The notes beneath the pieces are model-generated. The model searched no databases and had not been told where the DNA came from. It saw only the letters and a list, made by a program, of their open reading frames with translations. The translations under genes and the position numbers were made by a program. A stretch of 64,000 nucleotides of DNA from Simiduia agarivorans SA1 = DSM 21679 (GTDB taxonomy: Bacteria; Pseudomonadota; Gammaproteobacteria; Pseudomonadales; Cellvibrionaceae), in the NCBI RefSeq assembly GCF_000305785.2, contig NC_018868.3:2204001-2268000 (forward strand), written 5' to 3'. This document shows, piece by piece, positions 20,085 through 29,350 of this stretch (position 1 is its first letter; each line of letters begins with the position of its first letter).

Positions 20085-20219
20085 CGATAGCGTAATCCAC
20101 CATTCCAGAAAGTCAGGAGCAGAATGCGTAGCCGGAATTAGAAGGTGGAATGCGCTTCGCTTATTCCACCCTACGGAAAAATAAGACCGTAGGGTGGATT
20201 AGCGGCAGCGTAATCCACC
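20071..20219. repeat. Three REP-like hairpin elements after liuE (20071-20101, 20144-20175, 20189-20219)
   Basis: Each is a ~31-base imperfect palindrome starting GTAGGGTGGA on one strand and ending ATCCACC or ATTCCACC. Orientation is plus, minus, plus. The first and third have ATTAGCG..CGTAAT cores, the middle has AATAAGCGAAGCGCATT when read on the minus strand. The first overlaps the liuE stop codon. One degenerate 13-base unit (20131-20143) precedes the middle element. Same family as copies at 21.3, 29.3, 49.8-51.2 and 55.5 kb. Confidence 0.85.
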
Positions 20220-21262: not shown

Positions 21263-21339
21263 GGTGGGATGCGCTTCGCTTATCCCACCCTACGGGTAAA
21301 GGCAAACCGTTGGGTGGATTAGCGACCGCGTAATCCACC
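21263..21339. repeat. Inverted pair of REP-like elements (21263-21295 minus, 21309-21339 plus)
   Basis: The first copy has a GGTGGGAT/ATCCCACC stem, so both sides have changed G for A together relative to GGTGGAAT/ATTCCACC copies; the second is GTTGGGTGGATTA..TAATCCACC. The two are 13 bases apart and face opposite ways, a BIME-like arrangement. Confidence 0.8.
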
Positions 21340-21403: not shown

Positions 21404-21481
21404 GGTGGGATGCGCTTTGCTTATCCCACCCTACAGGTGCAGGCAAAAACGTAGAGTGGAATAGCGACAGCGTAATCCACC
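21404..21481. repeat. Inverted pair of REP-like elements (21404-21435 minus, 21451-21481 plus)
   Basis: The first again has the GGTGGGAT/ATCCCACC stem; the second reads GTAGAGTGGAATAGCG..CGTAATCCACC, with some stem mismatches. The second ends 16 bases from the stop of the 100-residue secreted protein gene, where it could act as a 3'-end structure. Confidence 0.8.
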
Positions 21482-21496
21482 GCGATTCATCCGGTT

Positions 21497-21799
21497 TCAG
21501 AATCTTTTTTCGATCTGCAATACCGGCGTGACGTCTATCAACTGACGAACCCGGTCATTTTTTTCGACGCGCATGCCATGCGGCAATCTGGCATCTGCCC
21601 GATACGAATTCAACAACCCGATATTCAGCTGCCATCGTTTTCGGGTGGTGACTTGTATCGACAATACCGCTTCGCACGGCTGAGCCAAAGCTACACGACC
21701 CATTTCATCATTTAACAACGGCTCTGATTCACAATGCGCTGCGCAGGGTAATGCGGCGCAAAAAATCAGTATCAATATCAATCGGTTCAATAGGCACAT
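21497..21799 (-). CDS. Small secreted protein at the end of the redox operon
   Basis: A 100-residue protein with a signal peptide (LNRLILILIFCAALPCAA). The mature part contains SEPLLNDEMGRVALAQPCEAVLSIQV and a basic RKRWQLNIGLLNSY segment; no family is recognised. The start at 21799 is well supported: GGAGGT lies six bases upstream on the minus strand, whereas the upstream in-frame TTG at 21823 has none. It follows the 72-residue protein by 46 bases and is probably the last gene of the YceI/DUF1592/DUF1552 operon. Confidence 0.6.
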   Translation of the reverse strand: MCLLNRLILILIFCAALPCAAHCESEPLLNDEMGRVALAQPCEAVLSIQVTTRKRWQLNIGLLNSYRADARLPHGMRVEKNDRVRQLIDVTPVLQIEKRF

Positions 21800-21845
21800 A
21801 GGTTGACCTCCATGTGCACACAATAAGGTGCCGTCGAATAACGGC

Positions 21846-22064
21846 CTATTCGCTGAAAGGGCTAGCCCCCATCGGCATTTGGCCTAATACCCGCTCCAGC
21901 TGTTGCATCCGCAAGGGCGCTACCGGTGCTGCGCTCTGCAGCGTCAACAATGCAACACCCACGCGCACCACATGCTCGCGCTGTTGATGGGCCGCACGGT
22001 CACCGGCCGTTAGTTCTAACGCACCGGCGAACAGTAACAAAGACATCGCCAAAAATCGGATCAT
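21846..22064 (-). CDS. Small secreted protein, unknown function
   Basis: A 72-residue product with a signal peptide or N-terminal anchor (FLAMSLLLFAGALELTAG) and a short basic/hydrophobic remainder (HVVRVGVALLTLQSAAPVAP). Its ATG overlaps the stop of the 49-residue gene upstream (ATGA at 22061-22064), an arrangement typical of translational coupling. No family is recognised. Position suggests an accessory part of the redox operon. Confidence 0.5.
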   Translation of the reverse strand: MIRFLAMSLLLFAGALELTAGDRAAHQQREHVVRVGVALLTLQSAAPVAPLRMQQLERVLGQMPMGASPFSE

Positions 22065-22210
22065 TGCACCAAAAACCGCTTTTCAAATTCCAGCACGGCC
22101 ATCACCGCCAGCTGTTTCTGCCAATCCATATCGGCTCGGGTCAGGCCACGGGCATCCGCCACCGTCACGCCAAGCAAGCCAATACAGGCAATCGCAATCA
22201 TCTTTTTCAT
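22061..22210 (-). CDS. 49-residue secreted microprotein
   Basis: Read from the minus strand: ATG at 22210, TGA at 22063-22061. The peptide starts MKKMIAIACIGLLGVTVADA, a textbook signal peptide with an Ala-Asp-Ala cleavage site, leaving a ~29-residue mature peptide that is amphipathic (LTRADMDWQKQLAVMAVLEF, then EKRFLVQ). It begins eight bases after the DUF1552 stop and its own stop overlaps the next ATG, so it is embedded in the operon. Small size makes the call tentative, but signal peptide and coupling both support a real gene. Confidence 0.55.
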   Translation of the reverse strand: MKKMIAIACIGLLGVTVADARGLTRADMDWQKQLAVMAVLEFEKRFLVQ

Positions 22211-22218
22211 CACCGACC

Positions 22219-23547
22219 TCAGCTGATGCTCAGCAGATTTGGAATCGTGTCTTTATTACCGGCGTAAGGTACCTCCACACCAGCGGCGCGACCGATAGTG
22301 GCCCACACCCGCTGCATGTCCACGGCCTTGCCCATGGCCCAATGGCTGCGCTCACCGAAATCGTACAAGTCATAAAAACGACCGCCGTTGTGCTTGAGCA
22401 AACCCGAGGCGCCGCCGATCAGTGTCACGGGTACATCCTGCATATGCTCGGGTGCGCCGTCGGCCATTTCAGAGGTAAATACCACCAGCGTGTGCTGCAG
22501 CAAACGATCGCCACTCACATCCGGATCGGGCAACGCATTCAATTGATCCAGCAGGTATTTCACCTGCTGCACATACCAGGCACGCGAGTCGCGCCATTCA
22601 GTCACACTGCCGTAGCGGTGCGCGCAATCGTGCGGGTTACGACTGGCAGACACGGATTTGATCGCCACCGGATCGGCACTGCGGCCGATCTGTAACGTAG
22701 CCACCCGGCTGGTGCCGCAACTCAAACCGTGCGCCACAATATTGGCGTGGGCACGGGTCACTTCATCGCGGTAATCGGCCGAGGTGGCAATCAGACCGGA
22801 TGCCGGTGATGCACTGGCTGGCGTGCAGGCAGCTTCCACCGGCACCGCGTTGTTCAGGTCAACCACCAATTGTTCCACTGCATCGAGGTGGGTATCGAGT
22901 TTGGCTTTTTCCGATTGCGACACCTGACTGCGCAATTGCTGCAACCGGCTGTTGGCCATATCAAAAAGATGCGCGCGCGAATTCGCCTGTGGCGCGCTGC
23001 TACCGGATGCCGACACATTGCCAAATACCTGGTCAAACAGCACATAGGGATCAACTTCCGGCACTATCATGTTGTTGTTGTCGTAAGAAATATTCCAGTT
23101 GGCACCCACGGTTGCATGGGGGCCGGAATAAATGCGCTTGAGTGTGGGGTTGGTACCGCGCAACTGATTGCCAAGTAACAGATCAATAGATGTTTTGCTG
23201 GCAGCCGAATCGCGCATGACGGTGGTCCAGGCATTGTGCCCACCGGTGCCCGAGCCCACGATCAACCCCTTTAGAAAAACCGACTGATTTTTATAGGCCG
23301 ATAAATGCCGTGACATTTCGTTCAGCTGGAAATTACCCGTATCTTTCGAGCCACCGGCATCAGGAAACCACAACCCGTTGTTGTAGCCGCCGTAAGCATC
23401 GACGCCAAAGCCATCGGGTATCACCGCAAACACCACTTTCAATTTGGGCGTACCCGAAGCCTGTGCCAGGCGGGCAAAACCACCCACAGAGAGCGGCGCG
23501 GCGCCGGCGGTGGCGATCAGGTTGCGTAAAAAACGACGGCGATTCAT
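22219..23547 (-). CDS. DUF1552 protein with Tat-type signal
   Basis: A 442-residue exported protein. The N-terminus MNRRRFLRNLIATAGAAPLS carries a twin-arginine motif, so it may be exported folded. The body matches the DUF1552 family: an early region rich in Gly and Asn (AYGGYNNGLWFPDAGG), VFLKGLIVGSGTGGHN, conserved THxxG-like spacing and VFTSEMADGAPEHM near the C-terminus. DUF1552 proteins are repeatedly encoded beside DUF1592/1588/1585 cytochrome-like proteins, as here, but their reaction is unknown; the fold is thought to resemble the alkaline phosphatase/sulfatase group, which I cannot confirm. It follows the 1135-residue gene by 99 bases. Confidence 0.85.
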   Translation of the reverse strand: MNRRRFLRNLIATAGAAPLSVGGFARLAQASGTPKLKVVFAVIPDGFGVDAYGGYNNGLWFPDAGGSKDTGNFQLNEMSRHLSAYKNQSVFLKGLIVGSGTGGHNAWTTVMRDSAASKTSIDLLLGNQLRGTNPTLKRIYSGPHATVGANWNISYDNNNMIVPEVDPYVLFDQVFGNVSASGSSAPQANSRAHLFDMANSRLQQLRSQVSQSEKAKLDTHLDAVEQLVVDLNNAVPVEAACTPASASPASGLIATSADYRDEVTRAHANIVAHGLSCGTSRVATLQIGRSADPVAIKSVSASRNPHDCAHRYGSVTEWRDSRAWYVQQVKYLLDQLNALPDPDVSGDRLLQHTLVVFTSEMADGAPEHMQDVPVTLIGGASGLLKHNGGRFYDLYDFGERSHWAMGKAVDMQRVWATIGRAAGVEVPYAGNKDTIPNLLSIS

Positions 23548-23646
23548 GGCGGCAGTTACCTGTCTGGAAATTCAATTCATCTGAGTGCATAGGGTAAAGA
23601 CCTGGGTGGCGAAAACCATTCGCCACCCGGTCTAATTGGCCTAGGT

Positions 23647-26600
23647 CTAACGGTCTAACCGGAGTAAGAACGCATCGCGTGACAAGCTCTGCAGCATCAG
23701 CGCTTTCACATCGCCGCTCTGGGTAAAAGCATCCACCACCGGCTGGCTCTGGCTTTGCGCGTCCAGCGACCGACCACTGGCAAAGCGCAGGAACGACTGG
23801 GCGAAGCAGGCCTTGGCTTCATCGGATTGGCCGAGGAAGCTGGCCAGTTCACGCGCGTCGTTGAAGTAGGTCAGCTCGGTCTGCGCATCGTTACTGCGCA
23901 GGATGCCGCTGGCGTTGATGGCCAATTCCACACCGGCCACGTTGTATGCCGCTTCAGTGGTGCGATAGCGACCGGCCTGATCGAAGTTTTCCAGCGAAGA
24001 GCCCGGATCATTCATCAGCTGATGACACTGCCAGCATTGGCCCTCACTGGCATCCGGGCCGGTGATCACATTCCAGCGCTCACGGGTTGTCAGGGCATGC
24101 TCGGGTATCTCGATGGTGGCCGGATCAATGCCCACCGGTACGCCCATGTCATGGCACAGCAGGTTCTCGCGGATCATCTTGCCGCGCTTCACCAGCGAAG
24201 TGGCCGCGAAATCCGAATTCAGGATCTGGGTAATACCCTGGTGCAGAATGCCGCCGCGCTGGTCATTGGTGTCCACCTTGGTAAAGCTGCTGCCAGCGGG
24301 TGCGGACAAGCCGTAGTGGGCCGCCAAAGTGCCATTGAGGTAGGTGTAGCCTGGGTTAAACAGGGCATTGAACTGGGCGCCTTCAGTCCACCACTGGTTT
24401 ACTGCCAGACGCTGTTCTTCCACCATGGCTGCAATCACATCCAGTGTCAGACCCGGCTTTTCCGACGTGCTGCCCTCGGTGTGGGTGTAATGGCGGATGA
24501 ATTCCACAAAGTAGCTATTGAAGCGGGCATCAGCCATCAGGCGCTCGGCCTGCGCTTCAATCTGCGCGGCGGTGCCCAGGCGGTTGTTGCGCGCCTCAGT
24601 CAGCAGCGTGGCATCCGGTGTGGTACCCCACATCTGGAACGACAGAGCCGCGGCCACCTCATAGTGATTCAGACGGTAGGCTTGCGCATCGGCATCCCAC
24701 TCGCCGCGCAGGCTCAGGTACAGGAAGTCGGGCGCCAGCATCATGGCGGTGAGCCAATCGCGGCTGCCATAGCTCTGGTTAAAACTCTGGGCGCTGCTCA
24801 GTTCGCTGCTGGTGAGCGGGCGACGCCACAGGCGCTCGGCCGCGCCGGCAATCTGCGCGTTTGAACAGCTGGCCACGGCACAGCCCAGACGGGTCAGATC
24901 TGCACTGGCTGCCGCCGGCTCCAGTAATTGCAGCAGACGGTTGGCCGCTTCGTAATTCACCACGCCCTTGTCGGCCTGGGTGGGGTATTTGAAATCGCTG
25001 TCGTGGAACGCCTTCGGCAGTTTGTCTTCGTCCAGGCTCACACCGGTGAGATCGGCCACAGCGTTGGCAAACTCGCGCGGTGTCAGTAAGCGCACGCCAC
25101 GCACACCACGGCCACCGTCAACCACCTCGACCTGATCGCGGTAGAGATCTGCGCGGATATAAGCGGCAATGTCGTCGGCACAGCTGCCGACACACAGGGC
25201 GGCATTGCCGAGCGGCATGGCGGCACTGATGTAGGCCGCAAGGGCTTCCTGTGAACGCTGATTGCTGATGATTTCGCGGCCGGTGTTGCCATCGGCACCG
25301 TGACAGTTAGTGCAACCCAGGTCGCGGTAAAGGTCGGCGCCAGTCAGCGCGTCAGGGACATGTGGCTGTACAGGATCAACCGGATCAATCGGGTCTACCG
25401 GATCAACCGGATCAACCGGATCAACCGGGTCTACCGGGTCTACCGGGTCAACCGGGTCAACCGGAACGCTCGGATCAACGGGCTCTGACGGGTCTACCGG
25501 CAATGATGGGTCAGGCTCCGACGTCCCGGCATAGAGGTTATCCACGATATAGGTGGCAATGGCGCTGGCGCAGTCACCCACACATTCTGATGCTTTACCA
25601 AAAGGCATATTGGCGGCGATGTAGTCAGCCAACGCACTCTGGCTCATGGGGCTGGCAACAATCGACACCAGCTCAGTGCCGTCGGCGCCGTGGCAGGCCA
25701 GGCATTCCTTTTCCACGTACAAGCGGGCACCGGTATCGGTTTCAGGTTCGGTGGGCTCGGGTGACGCACCATCATCGCCCGCCAAGTGGTAGCTGGCTGC
25801 GGCATAGGTGGCCGAAACGCGACCATTGTTCACCGCCGAGACGCGGAAATTGTAGTCTCCGGTGGCATCAAGGCTCAGGCTAAAGCGCTGCTGATTGGCT
25901 TCCAGCAGGGCCAGACTCTGCCAGCGACCATCGGGCGATTGCATTTGGACCAGATAGCCGGTTTCCTGCTGGGCCATATCGGCCCATTGCAACTCCAGTT
26001 GCCGGTCACCGGAGGCCTCGGCAATGAGCGCCTGCGGGTCGGCCGGCTGGCTCGGCCAACCCGGTTGCTGACTCGACTGCATGCGCCAGCGGGTATCGAT
26101 GTAAACCGGCACCGTGTTGCCGATGTCACTCAGGCCTGCGACGGCGCGCAGCGCTTCTATGCCGCCATCCAGTGCAAAGTCAGCGCCGTTCAACAGCAAA
26201 GGTTGTTGGGAGAAGACGCGCAGCTGCGACTCGGACTGACGCCACAGCATCAGCCTGGCGTCGATGGTTTTTTGCACGCCGTTCAGGCTCACCCGGATCT
26301 GGGTGGTCAGCGGGCTCACAGTACCTACCGCCAGCGCGTTAATCTGGGTGCTATCGAGCGTCGCATCAATGTAAACGCTGGGCAGCCAATCACTGGCAAA
26401 CAACAGCGCGCGCATGCGCTCGTCGCGCAGGGCAATACCCGAGTCGATGCTCGCCAATCCAACGCGCAGCCGCAGCTGGCCCTGCCCGGTCAGGTCGCCT
26501 TCTATCACGGTGAACCGATGAACTTCCTGCACCCGCTCTTTCTTAGTGGAAACAAACTGTAAATTGGATTGAGCGCTGTCCATTACCCAGGTCGCATGCA

Positions 26601-27054
26601 CGTCCGGGTCAGTGGTGGTTGCCGGTGCTTCCGGCTCCGCGGGCTGGGCGGGTTGATCCGGCTCCGAAGGCTGTTCCGGTTCTGCTGGCTGATCGGGCTC
26701 CGACGGCTGTTCCGGGTTCGTGGGCTGATCGGGATCAACCGGCTGCTCTGGTTCTGACGGCTGGACCGGCACTGTGGGCTGACCGGCACCGCTGTCGGCG
26801 CAACTGACCAGACGCCACGCCTGCTCCCACGCCAGGCCGGAACCGGGCGCGTAGTAGAAGCTGGACGATGACGAGCACCAACCGGCAACCTCGCAGCGGT
26901 AGTATTTACCTGCGTGGGAAACCAGCTCACCATACACGTATTGATTGCCCGTCACGTAGGCATTGGCAGAACCGCAATCGTCCATAGCAGACACTTGCGC
27001 GGTCGCCAGCAGGCCGCTGGTGATCAGGGCGATGTGGGGTAACCAGCGCTTCAT
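23647..27054 (-). CDS. Multidomain redox protein: CBM5/12-like, YceI, FN3-like, two cytochrome c, DUF1592/1588/1585
   Basis: A 1135-residue exported protein. Order: signal peptide (1-23); a Cys- and Trp-rich carbohydrate-binding-like module (about 27-85: [27 protein letters not shown]); Pro-Glu/Asp linker (88-150); YceI/X158-like lipid-quinone-binding domain (155-325); FN3-like domain (335-425); cytochrome c with CLACH (451-455); PVD-repeat linker (511-565); second cytochrome c with CTNCH (581-585); then the DUF1592/1588/1585 set (about 650-1135) with a third haem motif CWQCH (1007-1011). The two cytochrome domains are internal duplicates. The layout recalls Cbp2D/Cbp2E of Cellvibrio and Saccharophagus, redox proteins linked to cellulose oxidation. 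I infer periplasmic or surface electron transfer; the polymer is unknown. Confidence 0.85.
25376..25490 (-). repeat. 9-bp tandem repeats encoding a (PVD)n linker
   Basis: Within the 1135-residue gene, units such as GGATCAACC and GGGTCTACC recur about a dozen times on the plus strand, coding on the minus strand for [10 protein letters not shown] between the two cytochrome domains (about residues 519-563). Unit length is a multiple of three, so copy-number change would alter linker length without frameshift. Confidence 0.8.
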
Positions 27055-27761
27055 GACTGCACCTCCGCGCGACGAAATACCAGATAAAACGAAACCGGCA
27101 CACTGGTGCCCAGCGAGGTGAGCTTGGCCAGTGACTTGAGCTCGGCAAACCCGGCTTCAAAGCCGAACGACAGACCGTCGACCACCAGCGGCGCCAGACT
27201 GCGCACCATCAACCGATCAGCGGTCAGGCGGGACACCATGACGCTGGCCTGAATGTTTTGGGTAATGCCGTGCAGGTCCAGGGTAAAGGCCAGCGTCATG
27301 GTGCGTTCGGCACCCACTGCCAGGCCGTCCACCAACTGGGCATCAACCTGCGCTTCAACGCGGGCCTGCGGGTAGACCGCGGTTTCAAACAGCAGGTCGC
27401 GCAGGCGCTGGTCGCGTACGCTGTTGGCGCTATCCACGCTGTTCAGATCAATCACCAGCTCAGCCAGGCCCCGGCTGCTGATGCTGCCTGCAAAGCCGCT
27501 GAAATGCGCCACTTCGCTCACGTGCAACTTTTTGGTGGTCACAAAATGCAAGGCTGAAGAGGCACCGTCCAATTGCCATGCCGTACTTTCAGCCGGCGTC
27601 TCCACCTGGCCATTGTCGGGCACGGGCAGTGGATTATTGGTACCCGGTGCGGGCTCCGAAGGGGCAGCAGTCTCCTGGCCACAAGCGGTTATGAGCAACA
27701 GCATGGTCAGTGCTGACAGGTATTTCAGGCATTTCACGGCGTGGTTTCTCTGGTTTACCAT
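27051..27761 (-). CDS. YceI-family lipoprotein
   Basis: A lipoprotein of about 236 residues: signal segment LKYLSALTMLLLITACG with lipobox ITAC, a Pro-rich spacer, then a YceI domain (lipid- or quinone-binding beta barrel). The domain is a recognisable paralogue of the YceI part of the next gene: LHFVTTKKLHVSEVAHFSG here versus [19 protein letters not shown] there, and VRDQRLRDLLF versus [11 protein letters not shown]. Start is ambiguous: ATG 27761 is used; GTG 27740 would give a more typical short lipoprotein leader (MKCLKYLSAL). Its TGA overlaps the ATG of the 1135-residue gene, implying coupled translation. First gene of the operon. Confidence 0.85.
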   Translation of the reverse strand: MVNQRNHAVKCLKYLSALTMLLLITACGQETAAPSEPAPGTNNPLPVPDNGQVETPAESTAWQLDGASSALHFVTTKKLHVSEVAHFSGFAGSISSRGLAELVIDLNSVDSANSVRDQRLRDLLFETAVYPQARVEAQVDAQLVDGLAVGAERTMTLAFTLDLHGITQNIQASVMVSRLTADRLMVRSLAPLVVDGLSFGFEAGFAELKSLAKLTSLGTSVPVSFYLVFRRAEVQS

Positions 27762-27777
27762 TGATGCCGGCATGCTA

Positions 27778-29319: not shown

Positions 29320-29350
29320 GGTGGAATGCGCTGCGCTTATTCCACCCTAC
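29320..29350 (-). repeat. Single REP-like element downstream of ugd
   Basis: GGTGGAATGCGC..GCTTATTCCACCCTAC, the minus-oriented subtype with GCTGCGC loop variant. It is one of two unpaired copies of the family in the window. It is preceded by no 13-base unit. Confidence 0.8.

Follow-up and report, generated by a model that had tools for sequence, protein, structure and literature searches.

Which genes of a redox operon in Simiduia agarivorans SA1 = DSM 21679 form a conserved system, and what might that system do? The operon occupies 27773-21497, on the minus strand, of a 64,000-nucleotide stretch of contig NC_018868.3 (positions 2,204,001 to 2,268,000; the window). A sequence-only reading, made by a model from the letters and a list of open reading frames (ORFs), had taken it for a chain carrying electrons from membrane quinol outward to an oxidative polysaccharide enzyme or polymer, in which a DUF1592/DUF1552 extension and small secreted proteins would be new parts. 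We find that the conserved core consists of three genes, called here E (gene 1), D (gene 2) and DUF1552 (gene 3), and that DUF1552 recurs as the third member at every locus counted, that of Cellvibrio japonicus included. An envelope or extracellular redox role remains the likeliest reading of the locus, and its more specific form, a chitin-targeted three-component envelope redox system with an X132-DUF1552 core, is in our judgement just short of an even bet.

DUF1552 accompanies X132 at the loci counted

Gene 2 (23647..27054, minus strand) encodes D (1135 residues), which ends in a region (residues ~646-1135; 23650..25119) corresponding to DUF1587/1595/1592/1588/1585. The C-terminal domains of Cbp2D, the C. 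japonicus counterpart of D, were named X183 and X132, with DUF1587 marked, by Branch et al. (PMC8981238), and we use X132 for this region. Gene 3 (22219..23547, minus strand; 442 residues) is a DUF1552 gene (PF07586, HXXSHH; 9.6e-36, 124.4 bits for a cut-off of 30). DUF1552 was found directly downstream of X132, on the same strand, for 25/25 X132 ORFs in a first set of loci (the window and 24 others), directly downstream of all 20 full-length X132 ORFs in a second set, and directly after X132 in Isosphaera and Sphingobium, 47/47 in total. Since loci were picked for their resemblance to gene 2, with paralogues and near relatives among them, these counts do not represent independent events. One first-set DUF1552 was undetected by phmmer and confirmed by Pfam. 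Pfam also confirmed the Isosphaera pair and the DUF1552 genes of genomes G005 and G129. Two cut D ORFs (loci L055 and L056) are included here and left out of the X158 counts given below, and a weak 30-residue X132 match (L094, ORF 2-2320) was excluded.

The same association is seen in 144 genomes of the family, where DUF1552 is present in 69/69 of those having X132 among the matches listed, for a base rate of 75/144; the other six DUF1552 genomes have no X132 among the matches listed. The X132 and DUF1552 trees are congruent (r 0.93 over 22 pairs), none of 2000 permutations reaching as high a value (maximum 0.33), and as the permutations leave shared ancestry in, this correlation shows co-inheritance rather than contact. 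Three clades are seen in these trees, namely a window type, a three-haem Cellvibrio type and a Cbp2D type, and the X132 haem motif (C372, C375 and H376) is invariant in 18/18 aligned rows (the X132 of L107, discussed below, is not among them). In C. japonicus, a 402-residue DUF1552 gene (Pfam 3e-30) lies directly downstream of cbp2D (L063). We found no published link between DUF1552 and Cbp2D/E, nor any paper in which DUF1592 and DUF1552 appear together, in a search that left supplements and subscription papers outside. DUF1552 is absent from the main texts of PMC12542752, PMC8981238 and PMC10916295, there is no DUF term in the review PMC10154616, and DUF1552 does occur in PMC5615132 and PMC2754498.

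X132-DUF1552 pairs for which neither CBM (carbohydrate-binding module) nor X158 was found occur in Isosphaera and, by a glyoxalase-family gene, on a Sphingobium plasmid, which would suit an oxidoreductase of varied substrates. They favour inward harvesting, in which X132-DUF1552 would be a dehydrogenase or oxidase of the polymer, of its ends or of another substrate, with X158 feeding the quinone pool. We nevertheless consider this quite unlikely: a Pfam scan of genes 2 and 3 matched no dehydrogenase, flavin or pyrroloquinoline quinone (PQQ) domain, a PDB profile search with X132 turned up no solved relative (nothing at E 5), and the direction of electron flow is not legible in a sequence.

The surroundings of the pair vary. 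On Sphingobium plasmid AP027337.1 (L066, 5001-10682), a DUF1592-DUF1552 pair is preceded by an IclR-type regulator and followed by the glyoxalase-family gene, none of the genes scanned there matching a CBM or YceI, and DUF1552 genes like this one occur on 12 Sphingobium plasmids and one Novosphingobium plasmid. Plasmids yielded no relative of the window DUF1552, the Cbp2D-type DUF1552 leading to these Sphingobium/Novosphingobium genes, and scans of viral contigs found nothing related to X132 or DUF1552 of the window type, nor to DUF1552 of the Cbp2D type. In G129 (L047, 2154-6846), a 787-residue pyridine-nucleotide oxidoreductase/cNMP-binding/Fer4 protein is encoded 26 bases past DUF1552 on the same strand, followed by a 280-residue ORF and a 474-residue protein with ten CxxCH motifs. 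Two Lcl_C-domain proteins come after the three genes in both G123 (L050, 12145-13641) and G137 (L062, 12094-13609). Eight very large X132 proteins (1880-2255 residues; L088-L092, L099, L100 and L102), each directly followed by DUF1552, carry four CxxCH motifs in six cases, three in one and two in one.

A chitin-type relative of the Cbp2E-Cbp2D pair

Genome G015 belongs to C. japonicus: residues 470-560 of the L063 D protein agree with 7b21 at every letter except the last two, and its D (1122 residues) and E (350 residues from the ATG) have the lengths printed in PMC12542752. In Pfam, Cbp2D comprises CBM_2, YceI, cytochrome c and DUF1587/1595/1592/1588, and Cbp2E comprises CBM_2 and YceI. E and D of the window are, judged by their domains, relatives of Cbp2E and Cbp2D (Cbp2D/Cbp2E being B3PLJ5/B3PLJ6 in PMC12542752), in line with the sequence-only reading. 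Shared are adjacent E-D genes, X158 in both proteins, an X183 cytochrome and X132 in D (the DUF1587 match of the window being under the cut-off) and a DUF1552 gene directly downstream. The extension that this reading saw in DUF1592/DUF1552 falls away for DUF1592/1588, because Cbp2D itself carries these domains, which are the X132 of the literature; DUF1552, for its part, also follows cbp2E-cbp2D in C. japonicus.

Gene 1 (27051..27773, minus strand; 240 residues) encodes a lipobox-like LITAC, a linker and an X158/YceI domain at residues 66-233 (Pfam YceI, 4.4e-15), whose best solved relatives are 2x34 (E 2.5e-39) and 2x32 (2.7e-39), the X158 of a cellulose-binding protein. YceI is the only Pfam match, as in the G128 and G129 counterparts, and no CBM was found. 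D has a signal-peptide-like start, followed by a CBM73 module (residues 29-85; 26800..26970), a Pro-rich linker, an X158/YceI domain (residues 153-320; 26095..26598; 3q34/2x32/2x34 with E values of roughly 2e-26 to 8e-26), a stretch resembling FN3 (residues 340-411), a first X183-like cytochrome c (residues 438-503; 25546..25743; Pfam Cytochrome_CBB3; 8q1v at 2.3e-4), a Pro/Asp/Val linker, a second X183-like cytochrome c (residues 566-635; 25150..25359; 8q1w at 1e-5 and 7b21, the structure of Cbp2D X183, at 2.1e-6) and X132. Pfam matches over the cut-off are YceI, cytochrome c, DUF1592 (PF07631, 3.6e-29) and DUF1588 (PF07627, 5.8e-24), while DUF1585 (PF07624), DUF1595 (PF07637), DUF1587 (PF07626) and fn3 fall under it. 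CxxCH motifs are found at 451, 581 and 1007, the third, in X132, reading CWQCH. The architecture of CBM, YceI and cytochrome with three CxxCH motifs first read from the letters is borne out by Pfam and structure matches, while for the putative FN3-like domain the fn3 match stays under the cut-off (17.6 bits versus 25).

The N-terminal module is informative as to the polymer. Residues 29-85 match 6z41, the CBM73 of CjLPMO10A, at 5.5e-11 and the CBM of CbpD at 4.2e-7, and they align with modules of D proteins from G128, G129, G002 and G123 and of GH18 proteins from the same genome and C. japonicus, all of which makes it a CBM of chitin type. Pfam CBM_5_12 gives only 0.11 on this module, and CBM_2 is matched by neither gene 1 nor gene 2. 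In PMC8449059, 6Z41 is CjCBM73, which binds crystalline chitin. The module thus matches a chitin-type CBM73, not CBM2, and would be expected to bind chitin. What had been called a possible carbohydrate-binding module at 27-85 is a real CBM, and polysaccharide targeting gains a chitin type that had not been recognised.

On its predicted domains, the window operon represents a variant of the Cbp2E-Cbp2D system with a chitin-type module and a lipoprotein-like E: D has CBM73 where Cbp2D has CBM2 and two X183-like cytochromes where Cbp2D has one, E is lipoprotein-like with no CBM found whereas Cbp2E carries CBM2, and its X132 and DUF1552 fall in a clade distant from those of C. japonicus. Other systems are less close. 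TERTU_3803 and TERTU_2913 of Teredinibacter turnerae share X183 and X132 but carry X122, TERTU_3803 also having a PQQ-dehydrogenase-like pair, and no X158 is described for them in the part of PMC10916295 available to us. Planctomycete-specific cytochrome families (PSCyt3/PSD) have a DUF1592/1588 protein beside DUF1552, as in L016, but the L016 protein has no YceI or CBM match, and the literature consulted does not connect these families with Cbp2D/E. Fungal cellobiose dehydrogenase and AA12 PQQ dehydrogenase are secreted haem proteins, some with a CBM, able to feed lytic polysaccharide monooxygenases (LPMOs), but no flavin or PQQ domain was matched in the window proteins. We know of no counterpart in these two enzymes of the quinone-binding and DUF1552 parts.

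A CBM, long linkers and a lipoprotein-like partner would also befit adhesion or scaffolding, with CBM73, X158 and linkers mainly holding cells or enzymes to chitin and the haems incidental, and one X132 protein (L107) does lack CxxCH. This is very improbable given that each of three same-genus D proteins has three CxxCH motifs, that the X132 haem motif is invariant in the rows aligned and that DUF1552 has a twin-arginine start and invariant histidines.

Apparently exchangeable front and back ends

The occurrence of E follows that of X158 in D. E was found upstream of 20/21 X158-bearing D genes, the exception (L061) being near a contig end and two of the E genes scored present (L051 and L053) being cut where the sequence of the locus ends, and upstream of 0/22 D genes without X158. 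X158 changes at least three times on the X132 tree. In Cellvibrio, D proteins that differ in X132 type have X158 domains of a single clade. A branch separates the X158 domains of D from those of E in 97% of bootstrap trees, though it is weak in the best tree (27/87). These results suggest two interchangeable pairs joined in D, a front one made of E plus the CBM-X158 part of D and a back one made of X132 plus DUF1552. At loci L051, L053/L054, L055 and L056, from genus g9 to which C. japonicus G015 belongs, at least two E-D-DUF1552 units are clustered, alike in their front ends and differing in the clade of their X132; this is perhaps a site of active exchange.

Lipoproteins were judged by eye, because a regular expression yields false lipoboxes. 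E is lipoprotein-like and without CBM in the genus of the window (window, G128 and G129), while the six other E proteins scanned (two Cellvibrio besides Cbp2E) have CBM2 and no clear lipobox. A rule by which D proteins without X158 would be lipoproteins was clean in the first set (6/7 without X158, 0/15 with it) and was dropped when several X158-less D proteins of the second set proved to have ordinary-looking signal peptides.

Polysaccharide context and the place of LPMOs

One possible destination for electrons is an AA10 LPMO, to which D and E would pass quinol electrons on the same polymer, DUF1552 being accessory. This is one of the models in the Cbp2D/E literature and close to that of the sequence-only reading. 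In PMC8981238, the X183 domain of Cbp2D was able on its own to reduce and activate two bacterial LPMOs, and lpmo10B, cbp2D and cbp2E are among six genes listed as required for cellulose breakdown (PMC12542752). The genome of the window has two AA10s (sought by PF03067 only), of which the first resembles GbpA and carries CBM_5_12 modules and the second carries CBM2 and lies next to GH5 and GH9, and DUF1552 and LPMO10 co-occur in the family. Against this, the X183 domains of T. turnerae give no electrons to its AA10 (PMC10916295), cbp2D or cbp2E deletions are reported to grow worse than an lpmo10B deletion (PMC12542752), and the constancy of DUF1552 is left unexplained. Moreover, full triads of E, D and DUF1552 occur without AA10 in single-contig genomes G129 and G005, the latter having a CBM2-type triad and GH9, and likewise in draft G033. 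As G129 and G005 hold the full triad without AA10, LPMO electron donation is unlikely as the only job of the operon, and electron supply to an oxidative polysaccharide enzyme, if that enzyme is taken to be an LPMO, is an insufficient explanation. We hold the scheme as a whole to be unlikely.

In the 144 genomes, DUF1552 and LPMO10 are found together in 62, DUF1552 only in 13, LPMO10 only in 28 and neither in 41. The co-occurrence with AA10 that the sequence-only reading proposed as a check thus holds as an association, weighed below, but not as the rule expected if AA10 were the only partner, 13/75 DUF1552 genomes lacking LPMO10. Among genomes G000, G128, G129 and G127 of the window's genus, the operon is present in the first three and absent from the last. 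Respective matches are 5, 5, 3 and 0 for GH18 (two sharing one frame in G128), 7, 6, 3 and 0 for CBM_5_12, and 2, 2, 0 and 0 for both AA10 and GH9. Across these four, the presence of the operon parallels that of GH18, and the presence of AA10 parallels that of GH9.

For C. japonicus, the 2025 study PMC12542752 proposes that Cbp2D and Cbp2E pair as a heterodimer and cleave cellulose directly, through an unknown mechanism. Both proteins were found in the chitin secretome (PMC8981238), and cbp2D and cbp2E were among the strongly raised CAZyme genes in one C. japonicus comparison on fungal necromass (PMC11497827).

The DUF1552 protein

DUF1552 of the window has a twin-arginine start (MNRRRFLRN). 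When 45 DUF1552 sequences were compared, two of them from outside Gammaproteobacteria, Arg3, Arg4, Gly46, His104, His306 and His310 were invariant in 45/45, the last two forming an HxxxH, and position 360 (Glu in the window) was Asp or Glu in 44/45. In profile comparison, hhalign gave 96.0% for DUF1552 against DUF1501, over window residues 309-425 only, and DUF1501 belongs to the alkaline-phosphatase superfamily. Values were 35.6% for DUF1552 against one sulfatase sequence, 11.5% for DUF1501 against that same sulfatase and 0.2-0.4% for GH18 and X132 controls. The top four matches in a PDB profile search were sulfatases (best E 0.003, rest 0.09-0.18). We read DUF1552 as a protein predicted to be exported by the twin-arginine (Tat) route and possibly metal-binding, with a sulfatase-like C-terminal third.

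Operon layout and the small downstream genes

The six minus-strand ORFs described by the sequence-only reading are confirmed in order, strand and overlaps, and the operon is real. Genes 1 and 2 share an ATGA overlap (...TCATGAAG...), as do genes 4 and 5 (CAATGATC), gene 3 follows gene 2 after 99 bases, and gene 4 follows gene 3 after 8 bases, measured to its ATG. In counts against shuffles, neither promoter-like sites (1 versus a mean of 4.3) nor terminator-like sites (7 versus 8.0) were in excess. Gene 4 (22061..22210) encodes a 49-residue putative secreted peptide, gene 5 (21846..22064) is a 72-residue ORF and gene 6 (21497..21823) encodes a secreted-like protein of at most 108 residues, all on the minus strand. 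Gene 5 has a match in 1/144 family genomes, its own. In the related loci compared, a comparison that did not extend to whole genomes, gene 4 has no match at E 1 and the best match of gene 6 is at E 0.27. The distance from DUF1552 to the neighbouring gene is 207 bases in same-genus G128 versus 2135 in the window. The three small ORFs look strain-specific and are probably not part of the system, so that the idea that small secreted proteins are new parts of an electron chain finds no support in relatives. In intergenic stretches downstream of the operon sit copies of a dispersed repeat, GTAGGGTGG.ATAAGCG.AGCGCAT.CCACC, which has 37 genome copies at ≤2 mismatches (reversed control 0). Copies are found at 20144-20174, 21263-21293, 21404-21434 and 29320-29350 of the window, and elsewhere.

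A proposed polymer-tethered redox core

Our best reading is that X132-DUF1552 is a polymer-tethered redox core with an X158 quinone front end. D would leave the cytoplasm, acquire three c-haems and be fixed to chitin through CBM73, and the product of gene 1 would be its membrane-anchored partner. Since both E and D carry X158, a polyprenoid/quinone-binding domain, the E-D pair (a heterodimer, if the proposal for Cbp2D/E applies) would be a quinone-linked front end. Together, the haem-bearing X132 of D and Tat-exported DUF1552 would make up one functional core, probably a complex, to which DUF1552 may supply a metal site of three histidines and one acid. Electrons would pass among the quinone bound by X158, the X183 haems and the X132-DUF1552 core at the polymer surface, where this core would carry out or govern the oxidation of chitin at some step. 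The system may serve an AA10 LPMO, though it would not depend on one.

Several findings weigh against this reading. In G056 (L107, 4337-7287), a 553-residue, Pfam-confirmed X132 protein without CxxCH is followed by DUF1552; this X132 may have lost its haem and, as it is still paired, the X132-DUF1552 pair may not always need one. As to chitin, the comparison within the genus is of four genomes, of which G127, without DUF1552, has one gene 2 match (3.2e-30), and G002 has a CBM73-like module on its X132 protein and no GH18 or CBM_5_12 match. The link with LPMOs is favoured by the association of DUF1552 with LPMO10 (odds ratio 7, p 2e-7, kinship uncorrected) and suited by the place of lpmo10B in the required set. 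Regarding the metal site, DUF1552 position 45 is variable (12 Asp, 19 Asn, 12 Gly) and His368 is found in only 6/45, these being, we presume, the spots where other ligands of the alkaline phosphatase/sulfatase superfamily might be expected. His104 and His306 fall outside the likeness to DUF1501 and sulfatases, which is confined to 309-425. Finally, AlphaFold2 models of DUF1552 (2 rows; predicted local distance difference test score, pLDDT, 31.6) and of X183-X132 (3 rows; pLDDT 38.4) were unusable and were not used.

A bolder version of the X132-DUF1552 core can be formulated, which we offer as a rather doubtful proposition. X132 and DUF1552 would together be an unrecognised two-protein oxidative enzyme, made of a c-haem protein and a Tat-exported metalloprotein with three histidines and one acid in a partly sulfatase-like frame. 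This enzyme would act on crystalline polysaccharides with no copper LPMO involved, the substrate being chitin in the present case and cellulose in Cellvibrio, and Cbp2D/Cbp2E would have in DUF1552 their missing catalytic or electron-gating partner.

For the role of Cbp2D/Cbp2E, DUF1552 is a concrete candidate for the missing piece: it was next to X132 every time the two were counted, the pair is inherited together, and DUF1552 has kept residues that resemble a metal site. The chitin version of the system, found in a genus with an AA10-free member, is a natural test bed without LPMO effects, and the third gene gives a direct lead on how this haem/quinone system works.

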